Positions 3,029 through 24,523 of a stretch of DNA of 64,000 nucleotides are shown here, one piece after another; within the stretch, counting starts at the first letter, position 1; every line of letters begins with the position of its first letter. A program made the translations under genes and the position numbers. The notes below the pieces were generated by a model. That model saw only the letters and a program-made list of their open reading frames with translations. It was not told the DNA's origin and did no database searches. This stretch comes from Nocardia nova SH22a (GTDB lineage: Bacteria > Actinomycetota > Actinomycetes > Mycobacteriales > Mycobacteriaceae), in contig NZ_CP006850.1 in NCBI RefSeq assembly GCF_000523235.1, positions 6,758,001-6,822,000 of the forward strand, given 5' to 3'.

Positions 3029-6000
3029 TGGCAGCGGCCGACAACCCGCTGATCGCGCAACGGGAATCGTCGACCGAGTGGTACACCGGGATCGGGGTCG
3101 CGGAATCGGTCGCCGATGTTCACGACGCCATCTCCTCGGGTTCCTGGGTCGACGGCGGGTTGTCGGTGGTCGACGCCGGTACCGAAGTCGTGTCCATGGT
3201 CGTCGACCCGATCGGCACCCTCGCCTCCTACGGCGTCGGCTGGCTGATGGAACACGTCCAGCCGCTGCAGGACGCACTGGACTGGATCGCCGGCGACCCC
3301 GACGCCGTCACCGCCTACGCCAAAACCTGGGAAAACGTCTCCACCCACATCAACCAGGTCGCCGACCAGCACAACAAGCACGTCACCACCGACGTGGCGG
3401 ATTGGACCGGATCCGCGGGCGACGCCTATCGCGCCCACGCCACCGAAACCAACACCCTGCTCACCGCGGCCTCCAACGCCGCCTCGACCGCATCCACCGC
3501 GATCGCGATGGCGGGCGGAGTCGTGTCGTTCGTCCGCCAGACGGTGCGGGATCTGATCGCGCAAGCTGTCGGCCGGCTGGCGGCGTGGGCTGCGGAGGAA
3601 GTGTGCACTCTCGGTGTCGCGACCCCACTCGTGGCCGCGCAGGCCGGCACATTCGTCGCGAAAGTGTTGTCCACGATCGCGAAACTGTTCCGCAGACTGT
3701 CGGCCACCTTCAAGAAGCTCACTCCCCTGCTCCACAAGTTGAAGGGGTCGTGGGAAGACATCATCAAGGCGCTCAGGCGCGGCCGCGGCGGCGATCTCCC
3801 GTCCACCAGCAAGCCCCACACCACAACCCATCCGACCTCACACAAACCCGATACCCACGGCAAACCGACCCACCACGACGACGGCGCCGACACCCACACC
3901 ACCTCCCACGACGGCGATCCCGACACCGGCGACCACACGCCGGAAAAACCACGCAACGATCCACACCAACGCGCCACCGACGACCACGGCACCGGCAACC
4001 ACACCTCCGAGTCGGGTCCCGAAAACTCCCGCACCGAGAAACAGGTCACCGGATGCGGCGATCCGGTCGACGGCGCCACCGGCGAATTCCTGCTTCCGGA
4101 AACCGATCTCGAACTCCCCGGCGTGCTGCCGCTCGTCCTGGGACGACGACACCGCTCCAACTACCGCTTCGGCCGTTGGTTCGGCCCCTCCTGGTCGGCC
4201 ACCCTCGACATCCGCATCGTCGTCGAGACCGACACCGTCACATACATCGGCGACGACGGCATCATGCTCGCCTATCCCCACGCCGCGGCCGGTGTCGAGG
4301 CACTGCCGATCAACGGCCAATTGCGCTGGCCTCTGGTCCGCACCGAAACCGGTGGCTACCGCGTCACCGATCCCGATCGCGAACTGCACTGGCACTTCGA
4401 ACCCGAGGCCGCACTCGACGGCCTCGACGTGCGCCTGGGCAACTACGCGCTCAGCGCCATCACCGACCGGCATCGCAACCTGATCCGATTCCACTACGAC
4501 ACCGACGGGTCACCGGTCGAGATCACGCATTCGGGTGGATATCGGGTGCGCGTCGATACCGAAGCGGGCCGCGTCACCGGATTGGCCGTACTGGGCAAAC
4601 GCAGAGTCGCACAAGCACACTCCGAATCCAGCGGATCGGTTGGCGATGCTCCACCGCTGGGCGGTGCAGCTCGACCCGGCACCGGCGAGCGCCCTGCCGA
4701 CGGGAATTCGAGCACTGGCGACCGTTCAGCGGACCACGGGAACGAAACCTCCGACAGGCACGGCCCTGTCGTCGCAGGTTCACTGGAATCGACTGGAATC
4801 GCCGACGAGAATGCCACCGGTCCCGCTTCTGGGAATGTCGCGCATCGTGTCGACAGCAGCGGTTCCCCGGCCGACGGCGCGATCCGTGACGGCAGCGAGA
4901 TCGGATATCGGCCCGGCACAATCGCAGCAGACGCAGTCGACGATGGCCTGGACGACGAGATAGTCACGCCGGTACGAACTTTCATCTACGAAGCAGGCCG
5001 GCTGGTCGGCGTGACCAACGGCGTAGGCGCTACCACCACCTACACCTACGACGCCGAACACCGCATGACGTCGTGGACCGACTCCAACGCGAACTCCCTC
5101 ACCAACACCTACGACGAAGCAGGCCGCGTCATCACCCAACGTGGCACCAACGGCATCCTCAACGCCGACTTCGACTACTTCACCTACCCCGACGGCACCG
5201 GAACCCGCACCACCGTCACCGACTCCACCGGCGCCGCCACCCACTACGACTTCGACCCCGACCACAAACTCCGAGACGTCATCGACCCGCTCGGCGGTCG
5301 CATCCACACCGACTACACATCCGACCGCAAACCGTTGCGCGTCATCGCCCCCGACGGCGGCATCACCTACTACACCTACAACGCCGACGGCGATCTCACG
5401 AAAATCAAACGCCCGGACGACAAGTCGATCATCTTCGGCTACGCGGCCCGCAATCGGCCGACCACGATCACCGACGCCGACGACTCGACCCGCCACCAGG
5501 AGTGGGACTCGACAGGCAACGTCGCCGCGGTAGTGGACGAGGCCGGACGCCGCACGGAATACACCCACGCCCCGACCGGCGCCATCACCGCGATCACCGA
5601 ATCAACCGGGGCGACAACCTCATTCGAGGTGGACCGAGCCGGACTCCCCGCAACGGTCACCGACCCCTACGGCGCACCCACCACCATCGACCGCGACCAT
5701 TTCGGCCGCCCCGTCACCATCACCGACGCCCTCGGCGGCATCACCCGCCACGAATGGTCCCCCGAGGGAAAACCCCTCAAACGCACCGACCCCGACGGCT
5801 ATTCGGAATCCTGGACCTGGGACGGCGAAGGCAACCTCCTCACCCACACCGACCGAGCAGGCAACCGCACCTTCCACAAATACGGCGCCTTCGACCTCCT
5901 CGAATACCGCACAGACCCCGACGGCACCAGCACCCTCTACAACTGGGACACCGAACGCCGCCTCACCACAGTCACCAACCCCCTCGGCGACCACTGGACC

Positions 6001-7275
6001 TACACCTACGACCCAGCCGGACGCCTGGCCTCCGAAACCGACTACAACGGCGCCACCACCACCTACGAACACAACCCCAACGGATCCCTCGCCACCGTCA
6101 CCACCCCCACCGGAGTCCGCCGCCACCACACCCACGACCTCCTCGGCCGCCTCACCCAAATCCGCTGCGATACAGGCGAATACCAGCTCTACACGCACGA
6201 TGCCGTCGGGCGGTTGTTGACCGCGGTATCCGGTGTCGGAAACGACCGCACCCACACCCTCGAATTCACCTACGACACAGCCGGAAACCTGGTTTCCGAG
6301 CGCGTCGACGACCGCCCACCGATGCTGTTCGAACACGACGAACACGGACGGCGCACATCCCGCCGCAGCCCGAGCGGGGCGGTGACCGGTTGGGGTTACG
6401 ACCCCACCGGCCGCGTGACTTCCATGACCATCGACGGTCACCGGGCGACGTTCGCACACGACACACTAGGCCGCCCGACCGGATGGACTCTTGACAATCT
6501 GGTGGTCGAGCAAGCACTTTCGCCTGTCGGCCAGGTCCTCAGCCGACAAGTCTCAGCGCGCCCGAACCTGCCCGCCCCAACTCCTCCGCACCCCAACCAG
6601 GCCCGCTCGATCCGCCGCGACGACTACACCTGGCGCCCAGACGGCTACCTCACCACCCAAACCACCCACCGCCTCGGCGCATCCCCCCAACACCGCGCAT
6701 ACAACCTGGACCAGATCGGCCGAATCACCACCATCACCGACAATGGCCACGCAACCGAGCACTACACCTACGACGCCCTCTCCAACATCACCAGCACCCT
6801 TCCTCAGACGGCCATTGATCACCACCTTCACCCGAACCAGGCGCCCGGCGCATTTACACCCCCGCCCCACCAAGACCTCGACCGCAGACGTGAGTACCGC
6901 AATAATCTCCTCATTCGCAATGGTCGAACGCAATACCACTACGACCGAGCCGGTCGGCTGATTCGAAAACAAGTCAACCGACAGTCCAGGAAACCAGACA
7001 TCTGGCATTTCAGATATGACGCTTTCGATCAGTTGACCGATGTATTCACACCAACCAAACAGTGGTGGCGCTATACGTATGACGCCTTTGGTAGACGGAT
7101 CTTAAAACAGCAGACACAAATGATGGAAGTATCCTCGAACAAGTTCAATATACTTGGGATTCAAAACATCTCATCGAGCAGCACTCCAGTTACGCCGAGA
7201 CCGTTCGCTGGTGGTACCGACCAGATTCACATACAGGATTGGCGCAGCAAGTACACAGCGGCCGAGAACCTGTAA
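3028..7275 (+). CDS. WXG-domain RHS polymorphic toxin carrier, prematurely ended by frameshift
   Basis: The protein is a large RHS (YD-repeat) carrier of about 1,415 residues in this frame. The N-terminal 210 residues are helical with a W-T-G turn near residue 126, like WXG100/LXG proteins sent through type VII systems. A His/Thr/Asp-rich linker follows (about 255-330), then a DUF6531 region (GATGEFLLPETDLELPG, near base 4070) and many YD repeats (TYDAxGRxxxxT) to about 7100. Around base 7113 homology leaves this frame and continues one frame back, so the last 53 residues here, up to the TAA at 7273, are not RHS-like. ATG 3028 overlaps the upstream stop. A Ser/Gly/Asp-rich insert near 4600-4950 interrupts the repeats. 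As written, the carrier is produced without its toxin tip. Confidence 0.85.
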   Translation: MAAADNPLIAQRESSTEWYTGIGVAESVADVHDAISSGSWVDGGLSVVDAGTEVVSMVVDPIGTLASYGVGWLMEHVQPLQDALDWIAGDPDAVTAYAKTWENVSTHINQVADQHNKHVTTDVADWTGSAGDAYRAHATETNTLLTAASNAASTASTAIAMAGGVVSFVRQTVRDLIAQAVGRLAAWAAEEVCTLGVATPLVAAQAGTFVAKVLSTIAKLFRRLSATFKKLTPLLHKLKGSWEDIIKALRRGRGGDLPSTSKPHTTTHPTSHKPDTHGKPTHHDDGADTHTTSHDGDPDTGDHTPEKPRNDPHQRATDDHGTGNHTSESGPENSRTEKQVTGCGDPVDGATGEFLLPETDLELPGVLPLVLGRRHRSNYRFGRWFGPSWSATLDIRIVVETDTVTYIGDDGIMLAYPHAAAGVEALPINGQLRWPLVRTETGGYRVTDPDRELHWHFEPEAALDGLDVRLGNYALSAITDRHRNLIRFHYDTDGSPVEITHSGGYRVRVDTEAGRVTGLAVLGKRRVAQAHSESSGSVGDAPPLGGAARPGTGERPADGNSSTGDRSADHGNETSDRHGPVVAGSLESTGIADENATGPASGNVAHRVDSSGSPADGAIRDGSEIGYRPGTIAADAVDDGLDDEIVTPVRTFIYEAGRLVGVTNGVGATTTYTYDAEHRMTSWTDSNANSLTNTYDEAGRVITQRGTNGILNADFDYFTYPDGTGTRTTVTDSTGAATHYDFDPDHKLRDVIDPLGGRIHTDYTSDRKPLRVIAPDGGITYYTYNADGDLTKIKRPDDKSIIFGYAARNRPTTITDADDSTRHQEWDSTGNVAAVVDEAGRRTEYTHAPTGAITAITESTGATTSFEVDRAGLPATVTDPYGAPTTIDRDHFGRPVTITDALGGITRHEWSPEGKPLKRTDPDGYSESWTWDGEGNLLTHTDRAGNRTFHKYGAFDLLEYRTDPDGTSTLYNWDTERRLTTVTNPLGDHWTYTYDPAGRLASETDYNGATTTYEHNPNGSLATVTTPTGVRRHHTHDLLGRLTQIRCDTGEYQLYTHDAVGRLLTAVSGVGNDRTHTLEFTYDTAGNLVSERVDDRPPMLFEHDEHGRRTSRRSPSGAVTGWGYDPTGRVTSMTIDGHRATFAHDTLGRPTGWTLDNLVVEQALSPVGQVLSRQVSARPNLPAPTPPHPNQARSIRRDDYTWRPDGYLTTQTTHRLGASPQHRAYNLDQIGRITTITDNGHATEHYTYDALSNITSTLPQTAIDHHLHPNQAPGAFTPPPHQDLDRRREYRNNLLIRNGRTQYHYDRAGRLIRKQVNRQSRKPDIWHFRYDAFDQLTDVFTPTKQWWRYTYDAFGRRILKQQTQMMEVSSNKFNILGIQNISSSSTPVTPRPFAGGTDQIHIQDWRSKYTAAENL

Positions 7276-7958
7276 AATTCCATGCCATTTATACAAATCT
7301 AGTCGGATCTCCTGCAGAACTGGTTGATCCCAACACTTTCGAAAACTTCGACACAATCGTTACAGATTTATGAGGCAAAGCAAAGAATAAGAAGAACACT
7401 TACACTTCATTTCGCTTCCCTGGACAAACATATGACCCGGAAAGCGGACTACACTATAACTATTTCAGATATTACGACCCGGAAACTGGACGATACCTCA
7501 ACCGCGACCCGCTAGGGCTTGTTCCCGCCCCCAACCCCAACAGCTATTCTCATAATCCAACAGCATGGTCAGACCCCCTCGGTCTAGCATGCGAGCCAAC
7601 GGATGAAGTCGCGCCAACCACCCCGCGGAGGACTCTGTTCCACTACACAACCGAGGACCGGGCGAACCAGATCATGGAAAGCAACGAGTTGTGGCCATCC
7701 CTACGAGCCAACAACCCGAAGGATGCTCGGTACGGCGATGGCCAGTACTTCTCCGATATTCAACCAGGGACTCGATCGCAGGGCCAGCTGGCCCGCGCGT
7801 TTCTGGGTACTCCATGGGGCGGCCAACGATTCACACACTATCTCGAAATTGATGTCTCCGACCTAGAAGTGGTACAAGGAAGAGATGGCGTATTCGTCGT
7901 GCTCGGTGACAGCCCGTTGGACATAGCTGGCAGAATCGTCTCCCACGGAAAGAACTAG
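7116..7958 (+). pseudogene. Detached RHS core end plus HYD1-type ADP-ribosyltransferase toxin tip
   Basis: This frame continues the RHS protein after a one-base shift near 7113 (TNDGSILEQVQYTWD). It carries the RHS core end: a TGA at 7371-7373 where family members have Trp (L-W-G), then FRFPGQTYDPESGLHYN, FRYYDPETGRYLNRDPLGL and a DPLGLA boundary near 7580. The tip after it reads LFHYTTEDRANQIM, RYGDGQYFSDI and HYLEIDVSDLEV. That matches the HYD1-signature ADP-ribosyltransferase toxins (Tox-HYD1, PF15633), with the signature residues at His 7641, Tyr 7746 and Asp 7851. The first good internal start (ATG 7674) would remove the histidine. Two independent lesions mean the intact toxin cannot be made from this sequence unless they are read through. 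G+C is clearly lower here than upstream. Confidence 0.8.
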
Positions 7959-7961
7959 AAC

Positions 7962-8261
7962 ATGAAATATCTGAAAGTCAAGTGGAATCACCAACACCCG
8001 GAAGAGCCAGTATATTTCTATTCAGAACTCAGCCCCGAACGCTACGAAGTCCGGAAGATTCAGATTTATGGAGATGGCCACCGGGACTGGGCGAGCGAGA
8101 CTTCTGAGCATGGAAGTGCATTTCTAGCAGAGATCCAATTTCCATCCCTGAAGGAGATCTCTTCCGACGCTGATGTACAAGCATGGGATATTTCTGCAGA
8201 GGAGTTCGAGGCACTATGGAAGGAAACCGTGAACAGTAACGAACCGGGATCCGGCGGATAA
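7962..8261 (+). CDS. Probable immunity protein (DUF6881-like), 99 aa
   Basis: The gene begins three bases after the toxin-tip stop and encodes an acidic 99-residue cytosolic protein starting MKYLKVKWNHQHPEEPVYFY. This resembles the DUF6881 family (short proteins with an EVRKIEIF/DG pattern and an SAEEFExLW end), which I recall as common downstream of polymorphic toxins. Immunity to the HYD1 ADP-ribosyltransferase is inferred from position and size. It has the same low G+C as the toxin tip, so the two probably arrived together. The gene is intact although its toxin is broken, a pattern expected of orphan immunity genes. The family assignment comes from memory of the motif only. Confidence 0.7.
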   Translation: MKYLKVKWNHQHPEEPVYFYSELSPERYEVRKIQIYGDGHRDWASETSEHGSAFLAEIQFPSLKEISSDADVQAWDISAEEFEALWKETVNSNEPGSGG

Positions 8262-8836: not shown

Positions 8837-9727
8837 TCAGTCGGTGCGATTCGAGACCTCGTCGATCAGTTTCAGGGACTCATCTCGTTCGAGTGCAGCG
8901 CCCCAGAGTTGGTTGTACACATAGTCGAGCGCATCGACATCTCGCGCGTTGTCGGTCAGCTCACCGTAGATCGCGGTCTCCATCCAGGCCATGGTCGGCA
9001 GGCGCGGACTCTCGAAGTCCAACAGGTGGAACGTCGCGGCATTGAGACTGGCGATCGACCCCTGCGCATCGAAAGGAATCACGCGCAGGTCCAGATTTTC
9101 TGGGTGACGCTCGACCTGCTCGATGAGGTGTCGCAACTGTTGCCTCTGCACCTCTCGACCACCCACCTGCTGCATCAAGGCCGCTTGGCCGATGATCACC
9201 GACAGCTGCAACGGATCAGGGCCGTCGAGTAGCCGCTGACGCAGCAGTCTCGCTCGGACGCGCTGTTTGGCTTCGATCGGTCGTCCGGTCGACACGATCG
9301 ATGAGACCAGTGCGGCGACATAGTCTTCCGTCTGAAGCAGTCCCGGCACCACACAAACGTCGACGCTGCGAATCCGCTGGGCTCCGGCTTCGAGCCCATA
9401 GAAGCGCATCTGCTCGTCATCGAAGATTGCGGAGAACTCGTTCCACCATCCTCGTTGTTTCGCCATCTCGCGAAGCGAGAGCAACTCGCGTTGCTCGTCG
9501 GGCTCGAACTCGAGTAGGTCCAGGAGTGCGCGCAGCTTTTCCTCGGTCAGGACACCGCGAAAGTGGGTTACCTGTGACCAGTAAGCCGCACTCACTCCAA
9601 GCGCTTTCTGAATCTTGTTGCCAGCGATGCCATGCGATCTGCTCTGCTGGCGGACACGCAGCATCAGCTCCCAACCTGCAACAGCTGGGGACGTTCGGGG
9701 CTTGGGAGCCTCACGCATGTGGTGCAT
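8837..9727 (-). CDS. XRE-family regulator with DUF5753 C-terminal domain
   Basis: This is a 296-residue protein. An N-terminal helix-turn-helix (residues about 15-80, including GNKIQKALGVSAAYWSQVTHF) is followed by a DUF5753 ligand/partner domain. The latter carries the usual FYGLEAGAQRIRSVDVCVVPGLLQTEDYVAAL and VIIGQAALMQQVGG motifs. ATG at 9727 has a second ATG three codons later; either may be used. It is transcribed with the DUF397 gene and is divergent from the gene at 9793, so it may also control that promoter. These pairs act as transcriptional switches in morphological development and antibiotic control in Streptomyces; its role here is unknown. Confidence 0.85.
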   Translation of the reverse strand: MHHMREAPKPRTSPAVAGWELMLRVRQQSRSHGIAGNKIQKALGVSAAYWSQVTHFRGVLTEEKLRALLDLLEFEPDEQRELLSLREMAKQRGWWNEFSAIFDDEQMRFYGLEAGAQRIRSVDVCVVPGLLQTEDYVAALVSSIVSTGRPIEAKQRVRARLLRQRLLDGPDPLQLSVIIGQAALMQQVGGREVQRQQLRHLIEQVERHPENLDLRVIPFDAQGSIASLNAATFHLLDFESPRLPTMAWMETAIYGELTDNARDVDALDYVYNQLWGAALERDESLKLIDEVSNRTD

Positions 9728-12327: not shown

Positions 12328-13530
12328 GTGGGGACAAATGATCACCAATATGCGTTCGCTCAGCTGGTTCTGCTCAGGATGGCGAGATCCGGGGTCGCCG
12401 GATCGGCCCCGGTTCGGTATCGGCCGGATGAGTTCGCACTCTCGGTCGGCGAGGATCAGGTGCTGTTCCTGGGCAACCTCTTCCAGGAGACCGAGGGGTT
12501 GACCGATGAGGAACGTGATGCGCGCATCGACCGATTCGTCACCGCGATTCTGAGTTCCGTTGCACCCGAATCCAGTTGGGACGAGGCGCAAGCGGCACTG
12601 CGGCCGATCCTGCGCCCGGTGACCTATGGGCTCGGGGCGGGTGACATGCTCGAACCGTTGGTGCGCCAGGCTTTTCCGTTCATCAATGAGATGGTTGCGA
12701 TCGACCGGGAGGACACCCGCGCCATCGTGACCGGGGCAGATGCCGAGAAGTGGGGTGTGTCGGCCGAGGATGTGTTCGCTCGTGCCCGCGAGAATCTCGC
12801 CGCGACGATGGCGCCCGCCGAACTCGAGCCGCGGTCACTGATCCGCTTCGTCGACGATGGCAGCGGCTACTTCGCTTCCTATCCATTGATTCCGGAATGG
12901 TTTGCGGCACTGGTCAGTTCGGAGACCCGTCCCGTCGTCTTCATCCCCGATGTGGATACGCTGCTGCTCGTCCCGGACGATCCCGAGATCCTGGATTCGA
13001 TCTTCGAGATGGTCGAGGAGCAGTACCGGGACGCACCCCGCCCGCTGTCTCCACAGGGCTACACAATCGATGATCACGGCAGCGTCGTCCCCTTCGACCG
13101 AGCCGGTCCGCATCCCGCGTCACCTGCCGCACGGCGCGCCGCCGCCGGGCTCGCCGTCTCCGAGTACACCGTGCAATCCGGTTGGATCAGCAACCAATTC
13201 GACACCTACCTCGAACTCGACGAGTACGGCCTCGATCCGGCATACCCCGGCACCCCACTCTTCGTGGACGGGGACGATGGTCCGTGCACCGTCACCACGT
13301 GGGGCGAGGGGGTCGAATTCCTGCTCCCCCGAGCCGATTACATCGCCTTCTGTCTCATGGACGAGCAGGAGCAGATCAGCACCCTGTGCACCGTGCCGTT
13401 CGAGACGGCCGTCGAGCTCACCGGTATCACGGCCGTCCCCGGAATGACTCCGGAACGGTTCGAGGCCCGGCATTGGCCGGAACCGGAAACGCTGGCGGCG
13501 CTGGCCCGGGCTGACGTCGTGCTGACCTGA
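12328..13530 (+). CDS. DUF1444/YtpQ-like protein (400 aa)
   Basis: This is a soluble acidic 400-residue protein. The central part reads AFPFINEMVAIDREDTRAIVTGADAEKWGVSAEDVFARARENL and later RPVVFIPDVDTLLLVPDD, which resembles the DUF1444 family (B. subtilis YtpQ). The N-terminal 90 residues and the C-terminal 150 (ending in a DUF-like LTGITAVPGMTPERFEARHW) are outside that core and I do not recognise them. GTG 12328 has no Shine-Dalgarno but does have TAGAGT eight bases upstream. Function is unknown. Confidence 0.55.
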   Translation: MGTNDHQYAFAQLVLLRMARSGVAGSAPVRYRPDEFALSVGEDQVLFLGNLFQETEGLTDEERDARIDRFVTAILSSVAPESSWDEAQAALRPILRPVTYGLGAGDMLEPLVRQAFPFINEMVAIDREDTRAIVTGADAEKWGVSAEDVFARARENLAATMAPAELEPRSLIRFVDDGSGYFASYPLIPEWFAALVSSETRPVVFIPDVDTLLLVPDDPEILDSIFEMVEEQYRDAPRPLSPQGYTIDDHGSVVPFDRAGPHPASPAARRAAAGLAVSEYTVQSGWISNQFDTYLELDEYGLDPAYPGTPLFVDGDDGPCTVTTWGEGVEFLLPRADYIAFCLMDEQEQISTLCTVPFETAVELTGITAVPGMTPERFEARHWPEPETLAALARADVVLT

Positions 13531-13619
13531 CCTGGGATCCCGTTCACGCACAGGGCTGAGGCACGGGCGACAGATCGTTCGGCGTCGCGCACTCGGCCTC
13601 GTACCTCGGCGAGCAGTGA

Positions 13620-13676
13620 GCCATCTATAGATGGCAAGATTGATACGGGCAGTTCAACAGGCCATCTATAGATGGT
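13620..13676. promoter_or_regulatory. Paired 16-bp palindromes at the XRE gene
   Basis: GCCATCTATAGATGGC is a perfect palindrome at 13620-13635. A second copy with one end mismatch lies at 13661-13676, 41 bases further on (about four helical turns). The same sequence occurs upstream of two ESX gene groups (17495 and 21585). Its place at the 5' end of an XRE regulator suggests an autoregulatory operator. The first copy overlaps the ATG at 13631. Confidence 0.7.
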
Positions 13677-13984
13677 CGACTCGCGCGCCGCGCCTCGGAA
13701 ATCTCGTTGAGGTGCCCGAATCAGCCGTCGAGAAGCATCTAGCAGTGCTCTTGGGACAACGGCTGGCCACCCTCCGCGAGGGCAGGGGTCTGACGCAGGA
13801 GGAGGTTGCGCACGCCGCTGGCATCAGTCGCAACCATTACCAATTGCTCGAGAACGGCTGGAGCGTGCGCAGGACGAAGGCGCCTGCCAACCCGAGGCTT
13901 TCGACGCTGATCGCGCTCAGCGAGGTGCTCGGCACGACGGTGCCCGAACTCATCGATGAGATGTTCGGCAGGGCCGCGGGCTGA
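13631..13984 (+). CDS. XRE-family helix-turn-helix regulator
   Basis: The DNA-binding domain spans about residues 38-80: GQRLATLREGRGLTQEEVAHAAGISRNHYQLLENG, followed by a short C-terminal helix pair (STLIALSEVLGTTVPELIDEMF). No effector domain is present, so it resembles a small phage-like or toxin-antitoxin repressor. The start is uncertain. ATG 13631 lies inside the first palindrome, and a GTG at 13712 (VPESAVEKHLAVLL) would place both palindromes upstream and give 90 residues. It is the only regulator beside the ESX groups and is the best candidate to bind the repeated palindrome. That link is inferred from position. Confidence 0.8.
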   Translation: MARLIRAVQQAIYRWSTRAPRLGNLVEVPESAVEKHLAVLLGQRLATLREGRGLTQEEVAHAAGISRNHYQLLENGWSVRRTKAPANPRLSTLIALSEVLGTTVPELIDEMFGRAAG

Positions 13985-14005
13985 ACACTCTTCGTTCAGA
14001 GAACG

Positions 14006-14602
14006 TCAGTTGTCGGCTCCGACAGTAGGCTCGATCAACTCGGCCAGGTCGACCATTCCAGTGCAGGGATCGTAGGACATGCTGTCCGGCATGCTGGTCC
14101 GAATGAGTGCCACATCACCGAATTTGGTGGGGAAATACAGGTAGCATTTTTCACTTTGATACATGGGTTTCGCCGAGAATCCATCCCTCCCGTTCACCGT
14201 AACGGTGGTCACGGGATCATGTCGGTATGCCGGATTTTCCCAGAATTTTTTATCCTCCGCTAGACTCGTGTTGCTCGAGGCGATCTTCAGGCCATATGCT
14301 GAACTCGAACCTTCGAAGAAACTGCATCCCAGTATAATTTTCGGCGGCGAGACTTCGCCCGCATATCTTTTTCGGGTGTCCGGGTTGTAGCCAGCTTTAC
14401 GAATTGCGCTGTCAGGAATCATCGTGCATGGATCATAGGACACTTTAGGATTGATTTCCGGCCCCTGCGGCGGTGGCTGCAGGCTGGAAGCCGTCAATGT
14501 ACCCTGAGCGCTCGAATCTACGTCGCGAGGAGCGGAAGGCGTACCACAACCACTACACCCGAATATCACTAGCGCAGCGAGCGTTCCGGTGACTCTTTTC
14601 AT
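14006..14602 (-). CDS. DUF3558 lipoprotein (198 aa)
   Basis: The signal peptide MKRVTGTLAALVIFGCSGC carries a lipobox-like F-G-C-S-G-C; the second Cys is the better lipidation site. The mature domain has the DUF3558 marks: VSYDPCTMIPDSAIRKAGYNPDT, a conserved GCSFFE, and a second DPCTGMVDLAE. These Cys pairs probably form disulfides outside the cell. ATG 14602 overlaps the stop of the 797-residue gene (ATGA), so it is the last gene of the EspC-like/WXG operon. DUF3558 lipoproteins recur in this island (20765-21343), suggesting a role linked to ESX substrates at the cell surface. Confidence 0.8.
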   Translation of the reverse strand: MKRVTGTLAALVIFGCSGCGTPSAPRDVDSSAQGTLTASSLQPPPQGPEINPKVSYDPCTMIPDSAIRKAGYNPDTRKRYAGEVSPPKIILGCSFFEGSSSAYGLKIASSNTSLAEDKKFWENPAYRHDPVTTVTVNGRDGFSAKPMYQSEKCYLYFPTKFGDVALIRTSMPDSMSYDPCTGMVDLAELIEPTVGADN

Positions 14603-16992
14603 TTCCCCGCCCCTGGCGGCCTTTGTCTACCTCGGGGAGCGACCTCTGATTCCAGAATCGGACCATTATTCGAAGGATCTGCTTCCGGGAAGATGTTTCC
14701 ATGGTGATTGGCATTCATATCGAATGCAAATCTGTTGTATGCATTTCTCCACGAATTGAGCCCATTTCCCGATGCAACATTGCGCCAATCTTCCGCTAGA
14801 TTTCCACCATCGGGTTGGTCGAAATAGTGAGCGGACTCCGGATGCTGCTGAACGTAGCTTTGAACTTGCAGATACTGGCTCCTGATCGGATCGTTCGCGA
14901 TGGCATCATTGATAGCTTTCAGCTGGGAGGATACCTTGTCATCAGCCAAGGGATGCGCCGGATCGGCCGGATTGGGAATGACATCGGCTTTGATGTACGA
15001 GTCCACGGTTGCGGCGATTCCTCCTACGACAGGCCCGCTTTCCGGGCCCATGGTGATCGATGCCGCAGTCTGCACCACGCTGGTTACTCCATCGGCAAAA
15101 ACCCCTCGGTCGGCATACTCTTGCGAGGCTTGGTAAGAGCGTTGCGCGGCATGGGCACTGATTTCAGAAGAAATCCCTGTTTGCATGGCCTTTTGCAGGC
15201 TTTCTGCATTTGTCAGCAATGCGGGTGCCTGGTCGGTGTCGGCCCCCGAGGCGTAAGCGATCGCGTCGTGCCATTGCATGCCCGCGCTGTTGATCGTCCG
15301 CGCGGCCTGGGGGTCGGAGTCGAGTACAGAAAACATCTTGGCCAGGCCATCGTCGTTTACGGGCGATTGGAGCAGATGTCCGGAGGAATCCGTCGGGGCG
15401 CTGTTGAGTATGTTGACGCCCGGATAGTCGGTGACGCCGGCAAAATTTCCGAGGTACGGCGCCATCGTGTTGGCGAGGGATCGGGTAACGCCGGGGCTGT
15501 ATTCGCCTATGGGATGGTCCGGGCTGTTCAGTATCTGCTGATTGTTCGGATCGCCGAGAATGCCGGCCAGGCCGTACGCGGTCTGCCCCGCTTGATTGTT
15601 GGCGAAACTTCCCTTGGGCTGGGACGCATCCTCGCCGATCCATTTGAAGAGGTTCTCGGCGCCGTGCTGATCCGGTGTCCACTCGTGTTTCAGGATGTCC
15701 ACCACATGTTGGTTGCCGAAGTACTTGCCGCCGTGGTCGCACGTGACGCCCATCCGGTCCGCCGCCGCGCGCGCGTCGGAGCCCGCCGGGGCGTTGGCAT
15801 CGGCCAGGACGGCATCGTGGATGGCGGCGTGGTCGCCGGAGGCGTTGCTCAGCAGACCGTCGGCGAGGTTGGCCGCGTTCTTCGTGTTGACGTCGAAATA
15901 GGCGTCCGGATTCGAGGCGGCGGCGATTTCCGCGCCTTGTTTGAGCATGCCGCGGTTGATGTCGCTGCCTTGAATCGTTTTGTCGCCCTTGGACATTATC
16001 GAGTCGATGGCGCGAAGGTCATCCCAGTTGTTCACATGATGCGAACCGAACGGGATCGACTTGACCGGATCGTTCGTCAGCGCACGTTGGACAGTATCGG
16101 GCAGCTGGTTCATGCCGCCGGAGGCATTACTCGGCGCCCCGTCGAGCCCCGCCGCGTGGACCTGCGGGTCCGAGACGATGCGGAAGCCGTCGGCGACCGC
16201 CGACTGCACCTGGTCGTGACCGTTGCCGCCGAGTTTGCTTCCGAGATTCGCGATGTCCTCACCACTCATCCCGTTCATCCCCTTCGACAGGGCCTGGAGA
16301 TACTCGAATTGCGGGAGGTTGACACCCTTTCCGTTGGCCAGCGCGTCCTTGTCCTCCGGAGTGAGATCGGTGGCGGCGCGCAGGCGCTCCAGTGTGGCCG
16401 CGTCGGCGGTGCCGTTGCGCACTGCTTCCAGGTCGGCCTCGGCCTGCTGCGCGGTGAACTGGTCCGCGGGATTCTCCGTGTGTTTTTCCGCGGTGGCAGG
16501 TGCGGTCCCCGAAATCGAACCCACCGCCTCGGCTATCTTGGGCGCCCACTTGTCGATCGCCTCACCGAGCTGCTGCGACAAACTCTTCAGACTGGCGGTG
16601 GCGTTGTCGGCTCTCTGCTGAAGGTCGGGGTTGTCGACGTCGTGCGTATCGATGACATAGTCTTCGCCGATCGTCCATCCGGGAAACGAGTTGTTGCGGA
16701 CGTGGGACTGGATCTGCTCGATGAGCCACCCGGTATCGCCTTCGGCTCCCTGCAGCGCGGTTGCCAGGTCGTCGTAGGCGGTGGCGACCGCGCGCTGCTG
16801 GGTCTTTTCCCGGTCCGCTCGGTCGGCTGCCGCCTCGAAGGCCGCGCCCGACCAATCGAGGCCGTGAATGGTCCGATTCATCATGTCGGCATCCGTATCG
16901 ATGGCATCGCGGATCTTGGCCGCATCGGCAGCGATCTCGCCCAACGCTCCGGTTTTCCATCCCATCACTTGGGATTTGGGCGGGATAGCCAT
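14599..16992 (-). CDS. Large WXG-fold ESX-associated protein (797 aa)
   Basis: The first 130 residues are helical with a WXG turn (LDWSGAAFEAA near residue 45) and resemble the N-terminal domain of large actinobacterial ESX substrates. The rest is mostly alpha-helical and acidic, with recurring Asp/Asn-rich loops, and I recall relatives annotated only as TPR-repeat-region proteins. I see no enzyme motif, signal peptide or clear transmembrane segment; one apolar stretch (VVGGIAATVDSYI) lies near residue 675. The start is two bases after the stop of the EspC-like gene, and the end overlaps the DUF3558 lipoprotein start. A secreted effector or structural substrate is likely, its activity unknown. 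Confidence 0.7.
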   Translation of the reverse strand: MAIPPKSQVMGWKTGALGEIAADAAKIRDAIDTDADMMNRTIHGLDWSGAAFEAAADRADREKTQQRAVATAYDDLATALQGAEGDTGWLIEQIQSHVRNNSFPGWTIGEDYVIDTHDVDNPDLQQRADNATASLKSLSQQLGEAIDKWAPKIAEAVGSISGTAPATAEKHTENPADQFTAQQAEADLEAVRNGTADAATLERLRAATDLTPEDKDALANGKGVNLPQFEYLQALSKGMNGMSGEDIANLGSKLGGNGHDQVQSAVADGFRIVSDPQVHAAGLDGAPSNASGGMNQLPDTVQRALTNDPVKSIPFGSHHVNNWDDLRAIDSIMSKGDKTIQGSDINRGMLKQGAEIAAASNPDAYFDVNTKNAANLADGLLSNASGDHAAIHDAVLADANAPAGSDARAAADRMGVTCDHGGKYFGNQHVVDILKHEWTPDQHGAENLFKWIGEDASQPKGSFANNQAGQTAYGLAGILGDPNNQQILNSPDHPIGEYSPGVTRSLANTMAPYLGNFAGVTDYPGVNILNSAPTDSSGHLLQSPVNDDGLAKMFSVLDSDPQAARTINSAGMQWHDAIAYASGADTDQAPALLTNAESLQKAMQTGISSEISAHAAQRSYQASQEYADRGVFADGVTSVVQTAASITMGPESGPVVGGIAATVDSYIKADVIPNPADPAHPLADDKVSSQLKAINDAIANDPIRSQYLQVQSYVQQHPESAHYFDQPDGGNLAEDWRNVASGNGLNSWRNAYNRFAFDMNANHHGNIFPEADPSNNGPILESEVAPRGRQRPPGAGK

Positions 16993-16993
16993 A

Positions 16994-17305
16994 TCAGTTG
17001 CCCTTACCGTTCAAGTCACCGAACTCCGCCAGTTTCTGCGCCAATTCCTCGTCCTGCCCTTGGAATATGGCGGCGGTGGAGTAAAGCAACTCGGCCAGCC
17101 CCGCATGGCGTGACGACAAGGTGCGCTTGGCCTGCGAGCTGGCATCATCCGCACCGGACAGCGCGGCGGCAATCGGCGACCCCTGCAAAGCCGTCACCCC
17201 ACGCCCGGCATCGAGCAGCGGATAAACCTTCGCATCGTGGACTGCCTCACCCAGCCTGCCGAGACTGATCCCGGCTTCGCGCAAGGATTCCGGAGTGATC
17301 TTCAT
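16994..17305 (-). CDS. EspC-like ESX secretion-associated protein (103 aa)
   Basis: This is a small helical protein starting MKITPESLREAGISLGRLGEAVHDAK and ending LAQKLAEFGDLNGKGN. It has the size and two-helix layout of EspC-family (PF10824) proteins and WXG100-like partners, although a WXG turn is not visible. ATG 17305 is preceded by AGGGGG at a suitable distance. It is first in an operon with the 797-residue WXG protein and the DUF3558 lipoprotein, in the same order as at 2705-3028. It is probably the co-secreted partner or chaperone of the large protein. Confidence 0.7.
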   Translation of the reverse strand: MKITPESLREAGISLGRLGEAVHDAKVYPLLDAGRGVTALQGSPIAAALSGADDASSQAKRTLSSRHAGLAELLYSTAAIFQGQDEELAQKLAEFGDLNGKGN

Positions 17306-17373
17306 ACTCGCCCCCTGAGATGGACTCTCGGCCCATTCTCCCTGGCCATCTGTCCCCCTCGGTCCGCTCTTCA

Positions 17374-17510
17374 GTTCCAGGATCGTTCGAGAAATGTTCT
17401 GGTGCAGCAACTCCCAGAAATCGGCTCGGGGACCGATTCGGCCACCGCGCCCCTCACCGTCCATACATGGGCCACCCGATCTTTCGTAAATGATGCCATC
17501 TATAGATGGC
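17374..17510. repeat. Copy A of a duplicated upstream element ending in the palindrome
   Basis: About 137 bases match 21452-21600. The match begins at GTTCCAGGATCG, runs through a shared ATTCGGCCACCGCG block and a TAATGATGCC-like join, and ends with the palindrome. It lies 70-205 bases upstream of the EspC-like/WXG operon. No intact gene lies in it, but one frame partly resembles the 5' end of the XRE gene region (GTGNCCGAATC), so it may be a decayed copy of that regulator's front end. Confidence 0.6.
17456..17510. promoter_or_regulatory. Palindrome pair upstream of the EspC-like/WXG operon
   Basis: A perfect GCCATCTATAGATGGC occupies 17495-17510. A diverged copy at 17456-17471 (CCGTCCATACATGG core, about 11 of 14 positions) lies 39 bases away, the same spacing as the other two loci. 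It sits between the minus-strand operon starting at 17305 and the plus-strand gene at 17654 and could act on either. Confidence 0.6.
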
Positions 17511-17653
17511 TGACGCTAACGGGGGGCGCGTTGCCCGCCGGGTCGCCAAACGATGCGATAGCCCAGCTGTTCCAGCTCGGCGGCCAGCAGCGTGTCCGAA
17601 TCACGCTGAGATCAACTGTCCCGTGCGGCGGTTTCGCCCCGTACCTTGGCGGT

Positions 17654-18313
17654 GTGACGGAACGTGATTGGCATGCCTGGCACGCGGAATACGATCAGCC
17701 CGGTAGTGGACTGGCTCGGCGGCTCGACGCGGTACAGGAGCAGATCAGGGTCGCGCTCGACGCCGCGGCGCCGGGGCCGGTTCGTGTGATCAGTCTGTGC
17801 GCGGGACAGGGGCGCGATGTGATCGGCGTGCTCGCCACCCATCCTCGCCGCGGCGATGTCACTGCGCGCCTGGTCGAACTCGATCCGCGAAATGCCGCTG
17901 TGGCAAGGGATTCGGCGGCTCGGCACGGGTTGGACGGTGTCGAGGTCGTTGTGGGCGATGCCGCACTCATCGACCACTACGCCGCACTGGCTCCGGCGGA
18001 TCTGGTGATCGCCTGCGGAATCTTCGGCAATATCTCCGACGCCGATGTCGAGCGCACCATCGAGTTCATCACGCAGCTGTGTGCCGAAGGTGGCACGGTG
18101 GTGTGGACGCGCGGGCGCCGCGAACCCGATCTCGTGCCGCAGGTCTGCGATTGGTTCGCCGAGCGCGGTTTCGAGCAGGTGTGGCTGTCCGATCCGCAGT
18201 TTTCGTTCGGGGTCGGCGCGCATCGGTTCACCAGGGCGCCGGCGCCTCTCGAACCGGGCGTCACGATATTCACCTTCGTCGGCTACGACCGGCTGTCCGG
18301 CCCCACGACCTGA
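17654..18313 (+). CDS. Class I SAM-dependent methyltransferase-like protein
   Basis: This is a 219-residue protein. It begins VTERDWHAWHAEYDQPGSGL, then has a nucleotide-binding-like VRVISLCAGQGRDVIGVL (motif I, near residue 45), an acidic LVELDP (motif II) and VVVGDAA. This is the Rossmann methyltransferase pattern; the substrate is not evident. GTG 17654 begins the recognisable fold, and TACCTT six bases upstream fits a leaderless start. The frame is open far upstream, but that part covers the repeated palindrome and looks non-coding. It lies between two ESX groups on the opposite strand and may simply be a passenger. Confidence 0.75.
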   Translation: MTERDWHAWHAEYDQPGSGLARRLDAVQEQIRVALDAAAPGPVRVISLCAGQGRDVIGVLATHPRRGDVTARLVELDPRNAAVARDSAARHGLDGVEVVVGDAALIDHYAALAPADLVIACGIFGNISDADVERTIEFITQLCAEGGTVVWTRGRREPDLVPQVCDWFAERGFEQVWLSDPQFSFGVGAHRFTRAPAPLEPGVTIFTFVGYDRLSGPTT

Positions 18314-18320
18314 CAGCGGC

Positions 18321-19076
18321 TCACCAGGTGTCGGATTCGTCCTCGCGCAGGCGCTGTAGTGCCCTCTCGATCCAGGCGTCGAAGCGTGTTCCAAGATCCT
18401 GGGCGCTCGCGGGGCGGACCGTGATGTGCTCGGTTCGCACCTCGCTGTAGCGGCCGTCGGGAATGTCGTACCACTGCACCACATTCGACGGTTTCACATC
18501 GGAGTTGAACGGCCCCACGTGCAGTGTCGCGGAACCACCGCCGTTTACCGGGCCCTCGATCATGGTCAGATATCGTTCCCGAGGAGTGTTGCGGGTCAAT
18601 CCGTTTCGGCCGTCTCGAAGGTCGGCGGGGTGGACGGTGAGGGGAGGCGCGTTTCCTGGAGCGCACGGCGGGATCGTCGCGGCAACGCGGGTCGGCAGGT
18701 CCTCGGGGCGGCACAGCCGCAAGCGGATGAGGCCGTCGCGGTCGCCCTGGGTGAGCTGGTGGATCACCGCCGCACGGTCCACGTTGCGCGCACCGATGAT
18801 CCGATAGACCCGCTGACGGCCGTCGCTTCCCTTGTATTTCGTTGTGCCGCCCATTATTTCGATACGCATGTCCGAGGTGGTGAGGGTGTGCAGGGCCACC
18901 TGGATCAGTTCGAACTCGTCGGTGCTGTATCGCTCACGGACTGTGGTCCGGTGCAGCTCGAACTCGTCGCGAGTGGGGAATCTGCTGGTGAAGCGCAGCA
19001 GGCCCGGAAACCGGTCGTTCGCGTCGCCGAGCCACAGGGCCGCGAAATCATCCGGCTCCCAACTCCATTCGGTCAT
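18321..19076 (-). CDS. EspG-family ESX chaperone
   Basis: EspG proteins are cytosolic chaperones that bind the PPE partner of PE-PPE pairs and deliver it to the type VII ATPase. The 251-residue length is near the family's 270-290. The start WSWEPDDFAALWLGDANDRFP and the central DGLIRLRLCRPEDLPTRVAATIP fit the family (PF14011). It follows the PPE-like gene by 8 bases and is the last gene of the group-3 operon. Its presence supports reading the upstream gene as PPE-like. Confidence 0.8.
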   Translation of the reverse strand: MTEWSWEPDDFAALWLGDANDRFPGLLRFTSRFPTRDEFELHRTTVRERYSTDEFELIQVALHTLTTSDMRIEIMGGTTKYKGSDGRQRVYRIIGARNVDRAAVIHQLTQGDRDGLIRLRLCRPEDLPTRVAATIPPCAPGNAPPLTVHPADLRDGRNGLTRNTPRERYLTMIEGPVNGGGSATLHVGPFNSDVKPSNVVQWYDIPDGRYSEVRTEHITVRPASAQDLGTRFDAWIERALQRLREDESDTW

Positions 19077-19084
19077 CGTGTTGT

Positions 19085-20230
19085 CTACTCCGAACTGTGC
19101 CGATCGTCGTCCTGAAGATCACCGTCGATGACACCTCCGGGCAACGCCTTCGACAATTCACCGAGGAGTTCGGCGGCGTTTTCGGAATTGACCAAGTAGT
19201 CGGCCGTCTTATGAGTTTTCTCGTCCTCGTCTTTACCCTTGCCGGCATTACCGGGTACGCCCATACCGGGCATACCCGCGGTGCCCGCACCGGGACGACC
19301 CGACGCGGCCGCCGCGGGAGTCCCGGCCACGCCGGGAACCCCTATCCCGGGGATCGAACGGCCCGGTCCGCCGGGGGCAGGTCCGCCGCCGAGCCCGCCG
19401 GAGTGCAGGCCACCGCCCGGCAATCCGCTCGGTGTGGTGGACGGACCATGCGGGTCGACGCCCGCCGGAGCGGTGTTCGCGCCGGGATTCGTCCCACTGG
19501 GAGTTGTGGCGGCGGAGTCTCCGTTCGGGCTCGCCGCGGGCCGGTCCTGCGAGTTGGGGTCCTGAGGGGTGTCCTCACCAGGGGTCTTGGCATCCGAACC
19601 GTCCTGGCCGCCGTCCGGCTTCGGCGCATCGGTTCCGTCCGGGCCATCGGGTCCGCTGGTATCGCCGGGGCCCGTGCCGGGAATTCTGCCGTCGCCCGGC
19701 TGTGTCGGGTTCAGTGCTGGAGGCAGCTTCGGCACGTTGTGGTCGAAGCCGCTGAATCCGGCAACATAGTTGTGCTGCATCGCATCTCGGGAATCCGATG
19801 TGACCTTGGAACGTGAACGTTCCTCCTCGGCGGCGCGCGGCGGCCAGATATGCGTGGTCCAGGAATGAGCGGCAGCCGGTGGTATCGCCTTCTTCGTGTT
19901 GGCGATCGTGGTGCCCGCGGCGTCGATGTCCAGGCTGAGGCTGGACAGCAGGTCGGTCAGGTCTGCGGCGTGATCGGTGTAGGCCTTGATGGAGTTCTTC
20001 GCCTGCTCGGCCGCTTGCCCCTCCCATGCCTCGGCGATCGAGTTGTTCACCGAACGCTTGAAAGTCTCGAGGCCCTGATCCCACTCGGTGGCCGCCTTCG
20101 CATAGCTCTGTGCCATCCGATACGCGTCGCCGGGATCCAGATCGGAGAATGCGTTCTCGATTTGAGAGTGATCCCAATTGAAGACATTCTCACCACTGAC
20201 GATTCGGTTCGGCTCGTTCTCCCTGGCCAT
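19085..20230 (-). CDS. PPE-like ESX substrate with Gly/Pro-rich tail (381 aa)
   Basis: The first 150 residues are helical with a WEG turn (AEAWEGQAAEQAKN near residue 68), equivalent to the WXG of WXG100/PPE proteins. About 190 residues rich in Gly, Pro, Asp and Thr follow (PGTGPGDTSGPDGPDG), then a charged C-terminal helix (TADYLVNSENAAELLGELSK). ATG 20230 follows the 162-residue gene by nine bases. A 3' EspG gene and a 5' small partner match the PE/PPE/EspG order, so it is probably exported through ESX. It lacks the exact N-terminal PPE motif. Confidence 0.7.
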   Translation of the reverse strand: MARENEPNRIVSGENVFNWDHSQIENAFSDLDPGDAYRMAQSYAKAATEWDQGLETFKRSVNNSIAEAWEGQAAEQAKNSIKAYTDHAADLTDLLSSLSLDIDAAGTTIANTKKAIPPAAAHSWTTHIWPPRAAEEERSRSKVTSDSRDAMQHNYVAGFSGFDHNVPKLPPALNPTQPGDGRIPGTGPGDTSGPDGPDGTDAPKPDGGQDGSDAKTPGEDTPQDPNSQDRPAASPNGDSAATTPSGTNPGANTAPAGVDPHGPSTTPSGLPGGGLHSGGLGGGPAPGGPGRSIPGIGVPGVAGTPAAAASGRPGAGTAGMPGMGVPGNAGKGKDEDEKTHKTADYLVNSENAAELLGELSKALPGGVIDGDLQDDDRHSSE

Positions 20231-20239
20231 TCACACACC

Positions 20240-20728
20240 TCAATCCACGTGCATCCCCAGTGCGCCCAATAATCGCTGCGGTGCCGGACTCTGCTGCGGC
20301 AGAGTCGCTTCCAGTTGCTTGTACTGCGCCGCCAGGTCTTGATCCTGGGCGGTTATCTGTTCGCGGATCGCGCGAAACAACGTCTGGAAGTCATCGACGG
20401 TCTGGAAGTGCGAATCGAGAACCGCGTAGACGCTGTTCTCCGAACCACGCGACTTCTCGCGCCACCGCTTCACCATCGTCTTCGAAGACACAAGGTCACG
20501 GCCGTCATCAGGGACATGGCCCTCCCCCAAGCCCCAGTGCTCTTGCTGAGAGACCTGCGTCATGAGCTGCTGAATATTGCGGATGCCGAGTTTGAAAAAG
20601 TTGCAGTCTCGATCGAGGTATACGAACTTCTCCAAGTCCATCCGCACGCTGAGCCGTCCGGCCCTTGCATCATCGATCAAAGCCTTTACCGGACTTTGTG
20701 ATCGAGGCTTCTTCTCGTTTGCAGTCAC
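20240..20728 (-). CDS. Hypothetical ESX-linked protein (162 aa)
   Basis: I do not recognise a named family. It has a basic N-terminus (MTANEKKPRSQSPVKALIDD), a charged middle and helical segments (MVKRWREKSRGSENSVYAVLD; FQTLFRAIREQITAQDQDLAAQYKQLE). The GTG start at 20728 lies 36 bases after the lipoprotein stop. Place and size suit the small helical partner of the PPE-like protein, but no PE or WXG motif is seen. That role is a guess from context. Confidence 0.6.
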   Translation of the reverse strand: MTANEKKPRSQSPVKALIDDARAGRLSVRMDLEKFVYLDRDCNFFKLGIRNIQQLMTQVSQQEHWGLGEGHVPDDGRDLVSSKTMVKRWREKSRGSENSVYAVLDSHFQTVDDFQTLFRAIREQITAQDQDLAAQYKQLEATLPQQSPAPQRLLGALGMHVD

Positions 20729-20764
20729 GGCTTATGGATCCCTCCCTGAATCTTCCACACTCAC

Positions 20765-21343
20765 TCAGGCACCGGGCGGCATCATGGATACGACCTTGTT
20801 GCCCAATGTCTCAGCGATCCGACACGAATCCGTACTTCCAGTACGTGGAGCGGAAGCCGGGTTGTTGACGTTGAACTCGAGAGTCCCGCCCCGCATCTCG
20901 ACATTCAGCGTGCATGCTTCCTTGATGTACGGCCCATCGAATTGACGACTTGAAATCGCCCTACGGCCCCCAATCGCGAGTTCGCGCGTCTCCTGAAAGC
21001 CTTTGCCGCGGATCGCGTCGATCGTCAGGTTCGTGGTCCGGATCGCCACCGTATATCCATCACCATCAGCAGGCAGCCAGCTGCATCCACGCCACTCGAC
21101 GCCGTGAGTGCCTGCGTCGCTGTTGCTCCCGAGAATCAACTGTTCCGAATCGCGAACACTCTGCGGCACGTCCTTGCACCCGTCGTATCCGGTAGGCGCC
21201 TGCGCCGCCAACGACGGCCCCGCCGAGCTGGTCCCCTGCCCTGCCGGTTTCGCATCCCCATCGGTCGACGCCCCGCACCCGCCGAGCACCAGCGCGCCCC
21301 CGATCGCGACCGCCGCAACCGCGGTAATTCCCCGACCGCCCAT
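20765..21343 (-). CDS. DUF3558-like lipoprotein (192 aa)
   Basis: The signal peptide MGGRGITAVAAVAIGGALVL ends in a lipobox (L-G-G-C), so Cys23 should be lipidated. The mature part has YDGCKDVPQSVR, GVEWRGCSWLP and DSCRIAETLGNKVV, the Cys-bearing blocks typical of DUF3558 lipoproteins. ATG 21343 is supported by GGGAGG five bases upstream; the frame is open to 21589, but that part covers the duplicated palindrome element. It heads the PPE/EspG operon. With the lipoprotein at 14006 it is the second of this family in the island. Confidence 0.75.
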   Translation of the reverse strand: MGGRGITAVAAVAIGGALVLGGCGASTDGDAKPAGQGTSSAGPSLAAQAPTGYDGCKDVPQSVRDSEQLILGSNSDAGTHGVEWRGCSWLPADGDGYTVAIRTTNLTIDAIRGKGFQETRELAIGGRRAISSRQFDGPYIKEACTLNVEMRGGTLEFNVNNPASAPRTGSTDSCRIAETLGNKVVSMMPPGA

Positions 21344-21451
21344 GTGCGCCCTCCCGATCCCGGCCCACAACTCCCGACCGGCTACGTGTCGCAGACCTTC
21401 ATGTCCGAACCGTCGCGGTGATGATTTCGACCGCGATCCATCCGCGCCCTG

Positions 21452-21600
21452 GTTCCAGGATCGGGCGAGAAGCGTTCTGACGCAGCCACTCCCGGATATC
21501 GACTTGCCAATCGATTCGGCCACCGCGACCCTCCCCTCACCCGTTTGCCATCTATACATGGCATAAGCAATCTTGCGTAATGATGCCATCTATAGATGGC
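21452..21600. repeat. Copy B of the duplicated upstream element
   Basis: About 149 bases match 17374-17510, including GGTTCCAGGATCG, CGATTCGGCCACCGCG and the TAATGATGCC join before the palindrome. It lies upstream of the lipoprotein/PPE/EspG operon in the same orientation as copy A relative to its operon. The two operons therefore share a homologous control region. Several bases differ, so it is not a recent exact duplicate. Confidence 0.6.
21547..21600. promoter_or_regulatory. Palindrome pair upstream of the lipoprotein/PPE/EspG operon
   Basis: A perfect GCCATCTATAGATGGC lies at 21585-21600 and a copy with one mismatch (GCCATCTATACATGGC) at 21547-21562, 38 bases apart. The pair is about 200 bases from the operon start and just beyond the end of secA. 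Confidence 0.65.
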
Positions 21601-21642
21601 TCACGCGAACGCGATGGCTCCAGGACATCGATCACACGAAAA

Positions 21643-21674
21643 CGGCCGGTCCATCCCGAGGGATGGACCGGCCG
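21643..21674 (-). terminator. Strong hairpin after secA
   Basis: CGGCCGGTCCATCCC and GGGATGGACCGGCCG form a 15-bp perfect stem with a very short loop, just after the secA stop (21689). It should end secA transcription and also block reading between the island and secA. The U tract is weak, as is usual in high-GC actinomycetes. Confidence 0.75.
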
Positions 21675-21688
21675 CTATGGAGTCGAAA

Positions 21689-24523
<2,835 letters not shown>

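Follow-up and report, generated by a model that had tools for sequence, protein, structure and literature searches.

We describe here a small regulator gene of the XRE family, and the paired palindromic sites that accompany it, in a stretch of 64,000 nucleotides (nt) from the genome of Nocardia nova SH22a (contig NZ_CP006850.1, positions 6,758,001 to 6,822,000; hereafter the window, whose numbering is used throughout). Paired XRE sites appear to have been copied in front of two operons for substrates of ESX (type VII) secretion, which suggests that a defence switch was rewired to secretion. From the comparison of sequences, we regard it as reasonably probable that a controller of the restriction-modification (R-M) type, autoregulated through paired operators, was rewired onto these two operons, here called A and B. 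A broader proposal, which we hold with slightly more doubt than confidence, is that an R-M controller was exapted to serve type VII secretion as its own switch, dedicated to that role: its module would have been copied, with remnants of the first restriction-gene codons, after the loss of the R-M system, its sites would stand before ESX operons in several Nocardia, and a defence-style timing, delayed and all-or-none, would govern the secretion of ESX substrates.

The regulator gene and the sites are the following.

13620..13635, unstranded: outer palindrome of the XRE pair, perfect; a partner is found at most, not all, homologous loci.
13661..13676, unstranded: inner palindrome of the XRE pair, one mismatch, ending 35 nt before the GTG start.
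13712..13984, plus strand: XRE/HTH_3 regulator gene, 90 amino acids (aa), with the GTG start predicted from homologues.
17456..17471, unstranded: diverged palindrome copy of operon A, five mismatches, the positional homologue of 21547.
17495..17510, unstranded: perfect palindrome in the operon A control region, by sequence match.
21547..21562, unstranded: inner palindrome of operon B, one mismatch, reading GCCATGTATAGATGGC on the minus strand.
21585..21600, unstranded: outer palindrome of operon B, perfect, by sequence match.

The 16-bp palindrome GCCATCTATAGATGGC occurs without mismatches at 13620, 17495 and 21585 and with one mismatch at 13661 and 21547, and the palindromes form three pairs with spacings of 41, 39 and 38 bp. 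At up to three mismatches, the window holds five matches where 0.07 are expected, a number reached in 0 of 100 shuffles, and in the whole genome of 8,348,532 bases the copies with at most one mismatch are those five of the window alone. Four further matches with two to three mismatches lie elsewhere in the genome; they fit chance level, because the reversed control pattern yields 30 matches at up to three mismatches, against a total of nine for the palindrome. These window and genome scans confirm the perfect and near copies and the spacings given in a first-pass annotation of the window. That annotation had also counted a diverged copy at 17456, which stands by its position in a duplicated control region and fails by its own sequence (5 of 16 mismatches), and we count it by its place only.

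The XRE protein matches PF01381 at 8.7e-12 and is predicted to form five helices, with a single helix-turn-helix (HTH) domain filling most of its 90 aa. Its homologues share the GTG start at 13712, the distance from palindrome to start is constant (34-35 nt), and the block GCCATCTATAGATGGTCGAC at the inner site is near-invariant among them. One pair had been placed at the front of the XRE gene in the first-pass annotation; the adjacency stands, but the pair lies wholly upstream of the GTG rather than inside the gene. An alternative 117-aa open reading frame, which begins inside the palindrome, was rejected in favour of the 90-aa gene on account of the shared GTG and the constant distance.

The two operons, which carry the hallmarks of ESX substrate operons (PF14011, PF06013, PF23275 and PF10824), and their control regions are laid out as follows.

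14006..14602, minus strand: operon A, DUF3558 protein, lipoprotein-like (Pfam).
14599..16992, minus strand: operon A, EspA-like protein with TPR_23 (PF23275; Pfam).
16994..17305, minus strand: operon A, first gene, EspC-like small protein, with a predicted ATG start at 17305.
17363..17521, minus strand: operon A control region, resembling the XRE/R-M intergenic region of relatives as far as the start of the restriction gene (GGTGGCCGAATCG at 17434-17446).
18321..19076, minus strand: operon B, EspG-family protein (PF14011; Pfam).
19085..20230, minus strand: operon B, WXG100/PPE-like ESX substrate (Pfam).
20240..20728, minus strand: operon B, 162-aa protein without a Pfam match in a profile search.
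20765..21343, minus strand: operon B, first gene, DUF3558 protein, lipoprotein-like (Pfam), with a predicted ATG start at 21343.
21498..21620, minus strand: R-M-like operator/promoter module before operon B, with GGTGGCCGAATCG at 21512-21524.

The control regions of the two operons are diverged duplicates of each other (96 nt at 77% and 33 nt at 94% identity), which bears out the homology already claimed for them. The stretch 21498-21620 also aligns, at 71% identity and an E value of 3e-7, with the XRE/R-M intergenic region and the restriction-gene start of the relative BSTN01. Since palindromes drive such scores, they were masked or left out of the comparisons of modules and tails. The palindrome-free 55-nt tails of operons A and B still gave scores against the R-M tails of BSTN01 and of a Nocardia metagenome-assembled genome (MAG) that were reached by 0 of 1000 shuffles; among 4408 window 55-mers, one reaches the score of the operon B tail and two to three that of operon A, counts that are untraced and include the modules themselves. 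For the masked whole modules, the scores against BSTN01 and the MAG were reached by 0 and 0 of 1000 shuffles (operon B) and by 1 and 3 of 1000 (operon A). The shared tail motif GGTGGCNGARTCG, chosen after viewing the alignment, occurs exactly twice in the window, both times at the ESX modules; two occurrences also arose in 1 of 100 shuffles. In BSTN01, a homologous operon B and a homologous upstream gene are separated by a gap of 145 bp between matching stretches, against 327 bp in the window, without site or module. Operon B thus exists both with the module and without it, and either state may be the older.

As a separate observation, both ESX leaders share a stretch beyond their R-M-like part (17363-17446 and 21441-21524, minus strand, around GGGAGTTGCTGCACCAGAAC), whose sole relative in 150 genomes of the genus is a 22-nt match.

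The link to restriction comes from relatives, where genes were called with a home-made predictor and in part checked against Pfam. In three of them, BSTN01, the Nocardia MAG and Mycobacterium hubeiense, the XRE gene and a type III R-M operon of two genes are divergent, with the site pair between them; the operon encodes a BPTD_3080 restriction endonuclease (1145 bits in BSTN01, 1148 in M. hubeiense and 1160 in the MAG, with a cut-off of 800) and a type III methyltransferase (tested in BSTN01 and M. hubeiense). More distant XRE relatives in Kocuria and Rothia (39 and 37% identity) are divergent from methyltransferase genes, type III by PADLOC in Kocuria and recognised in Rothia by eye from a DPPYN motif without a PADLOC match; both carry a different near-palindrome before the XRE gene, with a half-like partner 37 and 38 bp upstream (by eye). 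The first-pass annotation saw no tie to a known regulator family, a view that has to be revised, given that the XRE/site pair is also found next to type III R-M operons, whose promoter the ESX control regions resemble. The operon B inner core variant GCCATGTATAGATGGC is found in the M. hubeiense R-M promoter and in ESX promoters of N. macrotermitis. A relic XRE/R-M locus in genome G185 (L162, ~9340-9460) keeps both sites, and after the outer one comes a remnant of the restriction-gene start (its scores against the tails of BSTN01 and the MAG were reached by 0 of 1000 shuffles; for M. hubeiense, p 0.012); the search gave no XRE match in that genome. The restriction gene is present in G191, M. 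hubeiense and Mycolicibacter icosiumassiliensis; no match to it was found in G000, G061, G156, G157, G174, G152 or G185, and only weak partial matches in G067. The window genome itself lacks a restriction endonuclease of the BPTD_3080 family, and its XRE gene is not linked to an R-M system. Two broken XRE copies (L057 and L059, in G067 and G152) lie at what seems to be the same place, after a run of rpsF, ssb, rpsR, rplI and a large open reading frame (names by eye).

The association also recurs within the genus. Among the 150 genomes, the core CCATCTATANATGG is found in nine and its reversed control in one, the XRE gene is found in eight, and seven of these eight carry the core site against 2 of the 142 others (p = 1e-9, with genomes treated as independent, though relatives are not). 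For 13 of the 21 core sites, an XRE gene (in G067 a broken one) follows within 200 nt, and six sites precede ESX operons: three in the window genome, two on contig 8 of G174 and one on contig 1 of G061. The remaining two fall in a TetR-like coding region (G082) and at the G185 relic. In G061 and G174, the ESX operons with a site are on contigs other than that of the XRE gene; G061 also has two XRE copies in a cluster with EccC-like FtsK/SpoIIIE, EccD and WXG100 genes, and the XRE gene of N. caishijiensis has an ESX operon as its divergent neighbour (a 105-aa protein, Abhydrolase_8, DUF3558, PPE, EspG). In N. camponoti, the operon divergent from XRE has YbaB and DUF6973 genes, from which an ESX identity cannot be shown. 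Genomes G000, G061, G156, G157 and G174 hold 12-28 EspG matches each; for four of these genomes, the probability that a random site falls no more than 6 kb from such a match was computed as ~2-4%. Paired sites precede the regulator's own gene at most XRE loci; a single site is found at the two XRE copies of G061 and in Mycolicibacter. This recurrence supports the predicted regulon that the first-pass annotation drew from XRE gene, paired palindrome and ESX operons, including ESX operons on other contigs, and across genome and genus the palindrome is neither abundant nor unlinked to ESX genes. Its label of island-specific proved too narrow, for the module recurs outside the window.

The palindrome was rejected as a general ESX feature. 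EspA-like matches occur in 30 of the 150 genomes; of 40 such matches outside the window genome, 29 (L023-L051) were examined with flanks of up to 1.5 kb, and 0 of the 29 have a site at up to three mismatches, nor was any found in the 15-16 kb around four of them. One-mismatch matches with a CG centre (GCCATCTATCGATGGC or its complement) were set aside as chance: one conserved coding sequence holds those of G025, G060 (contig 74) and G072, a similar one holds that on contig 113 of G060, and the match in G068 falls between predicted genes. The contig 113 match (L168, core at 9178), GCCATCGATAGATGGC within coding sequence, has two ESX-like genes downstream (by eye) and may be a weak site. In Nocardioides, core-like palindromes with 0, 1 and 1 mismatches (L086 9720-9733 and 10560-10573; L075 5716-5729) lie around or near a longer XRE gene (186 aa in L086), possibly of a related regulator family.

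The following mechanism is proposed. The 90-aa XRE protein, a putative regulator, would bind the 16-bp palindrome as a dimer, probably with two dimers acting cooperatively on each pair some 38-41 bp apart. The inner site, to judge from its place 35 nt ahead of the XRE start, would most likely overlie the promoter and so make the gene autoregulatory, with repression as the most likely outcome when the promoter-covering site is filled. At the ancestral divergent XRE/type III R-M locus, the inner site would have served the XRE gene and the outer one the R-M operon; the restriction gene would have been lost in the window genome, and copies of the intergenic operator/promoter module would now drive the ESX operons, so that a single local switch, which would regulate its own gene too, would govern both A and B. 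Sites, linkage, recurrence and module similarity are matters of observation here, while we infer the direction from R-M to ESX, because of the restriction-gene codons in the ESX modules and the R-M linkage of more distant relatives.

Several results weigh against this proposal. The resemblance to the R-M promoter is weak or absent when M. hubeiense is the reference (tails: p 0.005 for operon B and 0.39 for operon A; masked modules: 20/1000 and 161/1000), the spacers alone show no significant likeness, and the upstream blocks are alike for operon B only. ESX promoter tails in other genomes give no support for a transfer (G061, p 0.04, 0.09 and 0.99; G156, p 0.14-0.90; G174, p 0.011-0.013 against M. 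hubeiense alone and at least 0.9 against the others), so the claim of a module transfer is confined to the window genome, the other genomes sharing only sites. A remnant of the R-M system, sought at four XRE loci, was marginal in N. macrotermitis (G174) only (p 0.019 and 0.006), and none was found at the window's own XRE locus (p ~0.6), in G067 (~0.6) or in G157 (0.15, 0.35). The R-M family also occurs without the palindrome in G012 and in M. icosiumassiliensis, where the restriction gene (G603:C2:221028-224006) stands apart from the XRE gene; a close XRE adjoins 1 of 18 R-M loci (flanks of 1.5 kb, some cut by contig ends), with a weak match at one more, and a general XRE/BPTD_3080 pairing across the phylum is not supported. 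Furthermore, a sigma-70-like consensus scan of the XRE (13500-13760) and operon B (21300-21720) regions gave no match, the XRE phylogenetic tree gave no resolved branching, an XRE relative in Miniimonas has no palindrome, and the fold match of the modelled protein does not single out the controller proteins (C-proteins) of R-M systems, with ClgR (13.1) and SinR (11.7) also close.

Other explanations have been weighed against the same evidence. It is unlikely, in our view, that the XRE protein regulates only itself, as a former R-M control, and that the ESX copies are functionless remains of a DNA duplication or recombination. The decay of the inner operon A copy to five mismatches, the broken XRE or module copies in G067, G152 and G185 and the R-M-like codons in the ESX leaders, which resemble leftovers, would all agree with debris; however, the outer ESX sites are perfect in a module that has diverged around them (77-80% identity), ESX operons preceded by sites are also found in other genomes, unlinked in two of them and with no restriction-gene match there, and a random site would seldom fall so close to an EspG gene (2-4% for 6 kb). 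That another transcription factor binds the palindrome, with the XRE gene merely one of its targets, seems decidedly improbable: binding by XRE is a prediction, and the Miniimonas relative lacks a site, yet site and XRE gene go together across genomes, and of the 142 genomes of the genus that have no XRE gene, 140 have no site either. We give still less credit to a small mobile repeat, of the kind of a miniature inverted-repeat transposable element, that happened to insert ahead of ESX genes. The genome does contain a ~160-bp segment twice, in diverged form, which might recall such an element, but the operon B leader (21405-21545), compared with the 150 genomes, finds nothing beyond its own sequence, operon A and a match of 22 nt; viral contigs do not contain the exact pair pattern, and no plasmid or phage record matches the XRE protein at E 1e-5. 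Hardly credible is an RNA hairpin or leader element acting post-transcriptionally, for although the sequence is compatible with a 6-bp stem closed by a UAUA loop and G152 has two-sided changes, the loop TATA is kept in nearly all sites including those of G152 (the exceptions being the decayed operon A and G185 copies), and a recurrent C-to-G change breaks the stem in operon B, M. hubeiense and N. macrotermitis.

We return to the reading of an R-M-type controller rewired to secretion, and to the known systems with which it can be compared. C-protein genes are usually placed next to a type II nuclease gene, whereas the neighbour of the XRE gene in relatives is a divergent operon for type III R-M, and in the window ESX operons carry the operators. 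The likeness to C-proteins, especially C.Csp231I and C.EcoO109I, lies in the wide-spaced operator pair before their own gene and the small single-domain HTH_XRE protein; the palindrome here, CCATCTATAGATGG, differs both from CTAAGN5CTTAG and from the canonical C-box GACTtatAGTC. C.Csp231I is a precedent for wide operator spacing, with a longer spacing in C.EcoO109I, and C-protein motifs other than GACTtatAGTC exist (PMC3115060). HsdC of Mollicutes is a C-protein of type I/II R-M with the additional targets clpB and trnM and a site over the -10 box (PMC5282649); it likewise is an R-M controller with targets outside R-M, but its tested site is a short direct repeat, unlike the whole two-operator R-M-like modules before secretion operons described here.

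EspR of Mycobacterium tuberculosis is an HTH protein that affects espACD and binds its own promoter region; it is described as nucleoid-associated, with hundreds of sites (TTTGC[TC][GA]), espACD sites >300 bp upstream of the promoter and a C-terminal dimerisation domain (PMC3315491). The window XRE differs in its site, in having five near-exact sites (at most one mismatch) in 8.35 Mb, and in the lack of a C-terminal dimerisation domain in its 90 aa; EspR is absent from the best 50 fold-comparison matches, an absence that excludes nothing. SinR/CapH-like proteins and actinobacterial XRE regulators (ClgR, and 5woq of M. smegmatis) are also among the closest known systems. Deletion of BswR, an XRE-type regulator of Pseudomonas whose fold is likened to C-proteins and EspR, raises type III secretion genes, and the available text mentions no R-M origin for it (PMC3985676). 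Given the wide-spacing precedent of C.Csp231I, the non-R-M targets of HsdC and the unlikeness of EspR, we hold that the XRE protein would work like an R-M controller, whether or not it belongs to the C-protein family. Our literature search found no paper joining type VII secretion, Nocardia and an XRE regulator.

If the proposal is true, ESX operons outside mycobacteria would gain a regulator and an operator concrete enough to be tested. It would also offer a before/after case of rewiring, with the same ESX operon carrying the module (window) or lacking it (BSTN01) and the same regulator with and without R-M genes, and one could then ask whether orphan controllers of the R-M type in actinobacteria have secretion or toxin genes among their targets.

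Around the operons, gene calls place two further genes.

17654-18313, plus strand: methyltransferase gene between operons A and B.
21689-24523: SecA gene upstream of operon B.

At 3028-8261, the window carries a polymorphic-toxin-like cluster, in which a WXG-headed RHS-repeat protein is followed by a gene with a HYD1 ADP-ribosyltransferase-like domain and a DUF6881 gene. A DUF5753 XRE regulator gene lies at 8837-9727 (minus strand), and a homologous stretch with a like gene is found in BSTN01 (L065, 14833-15660).
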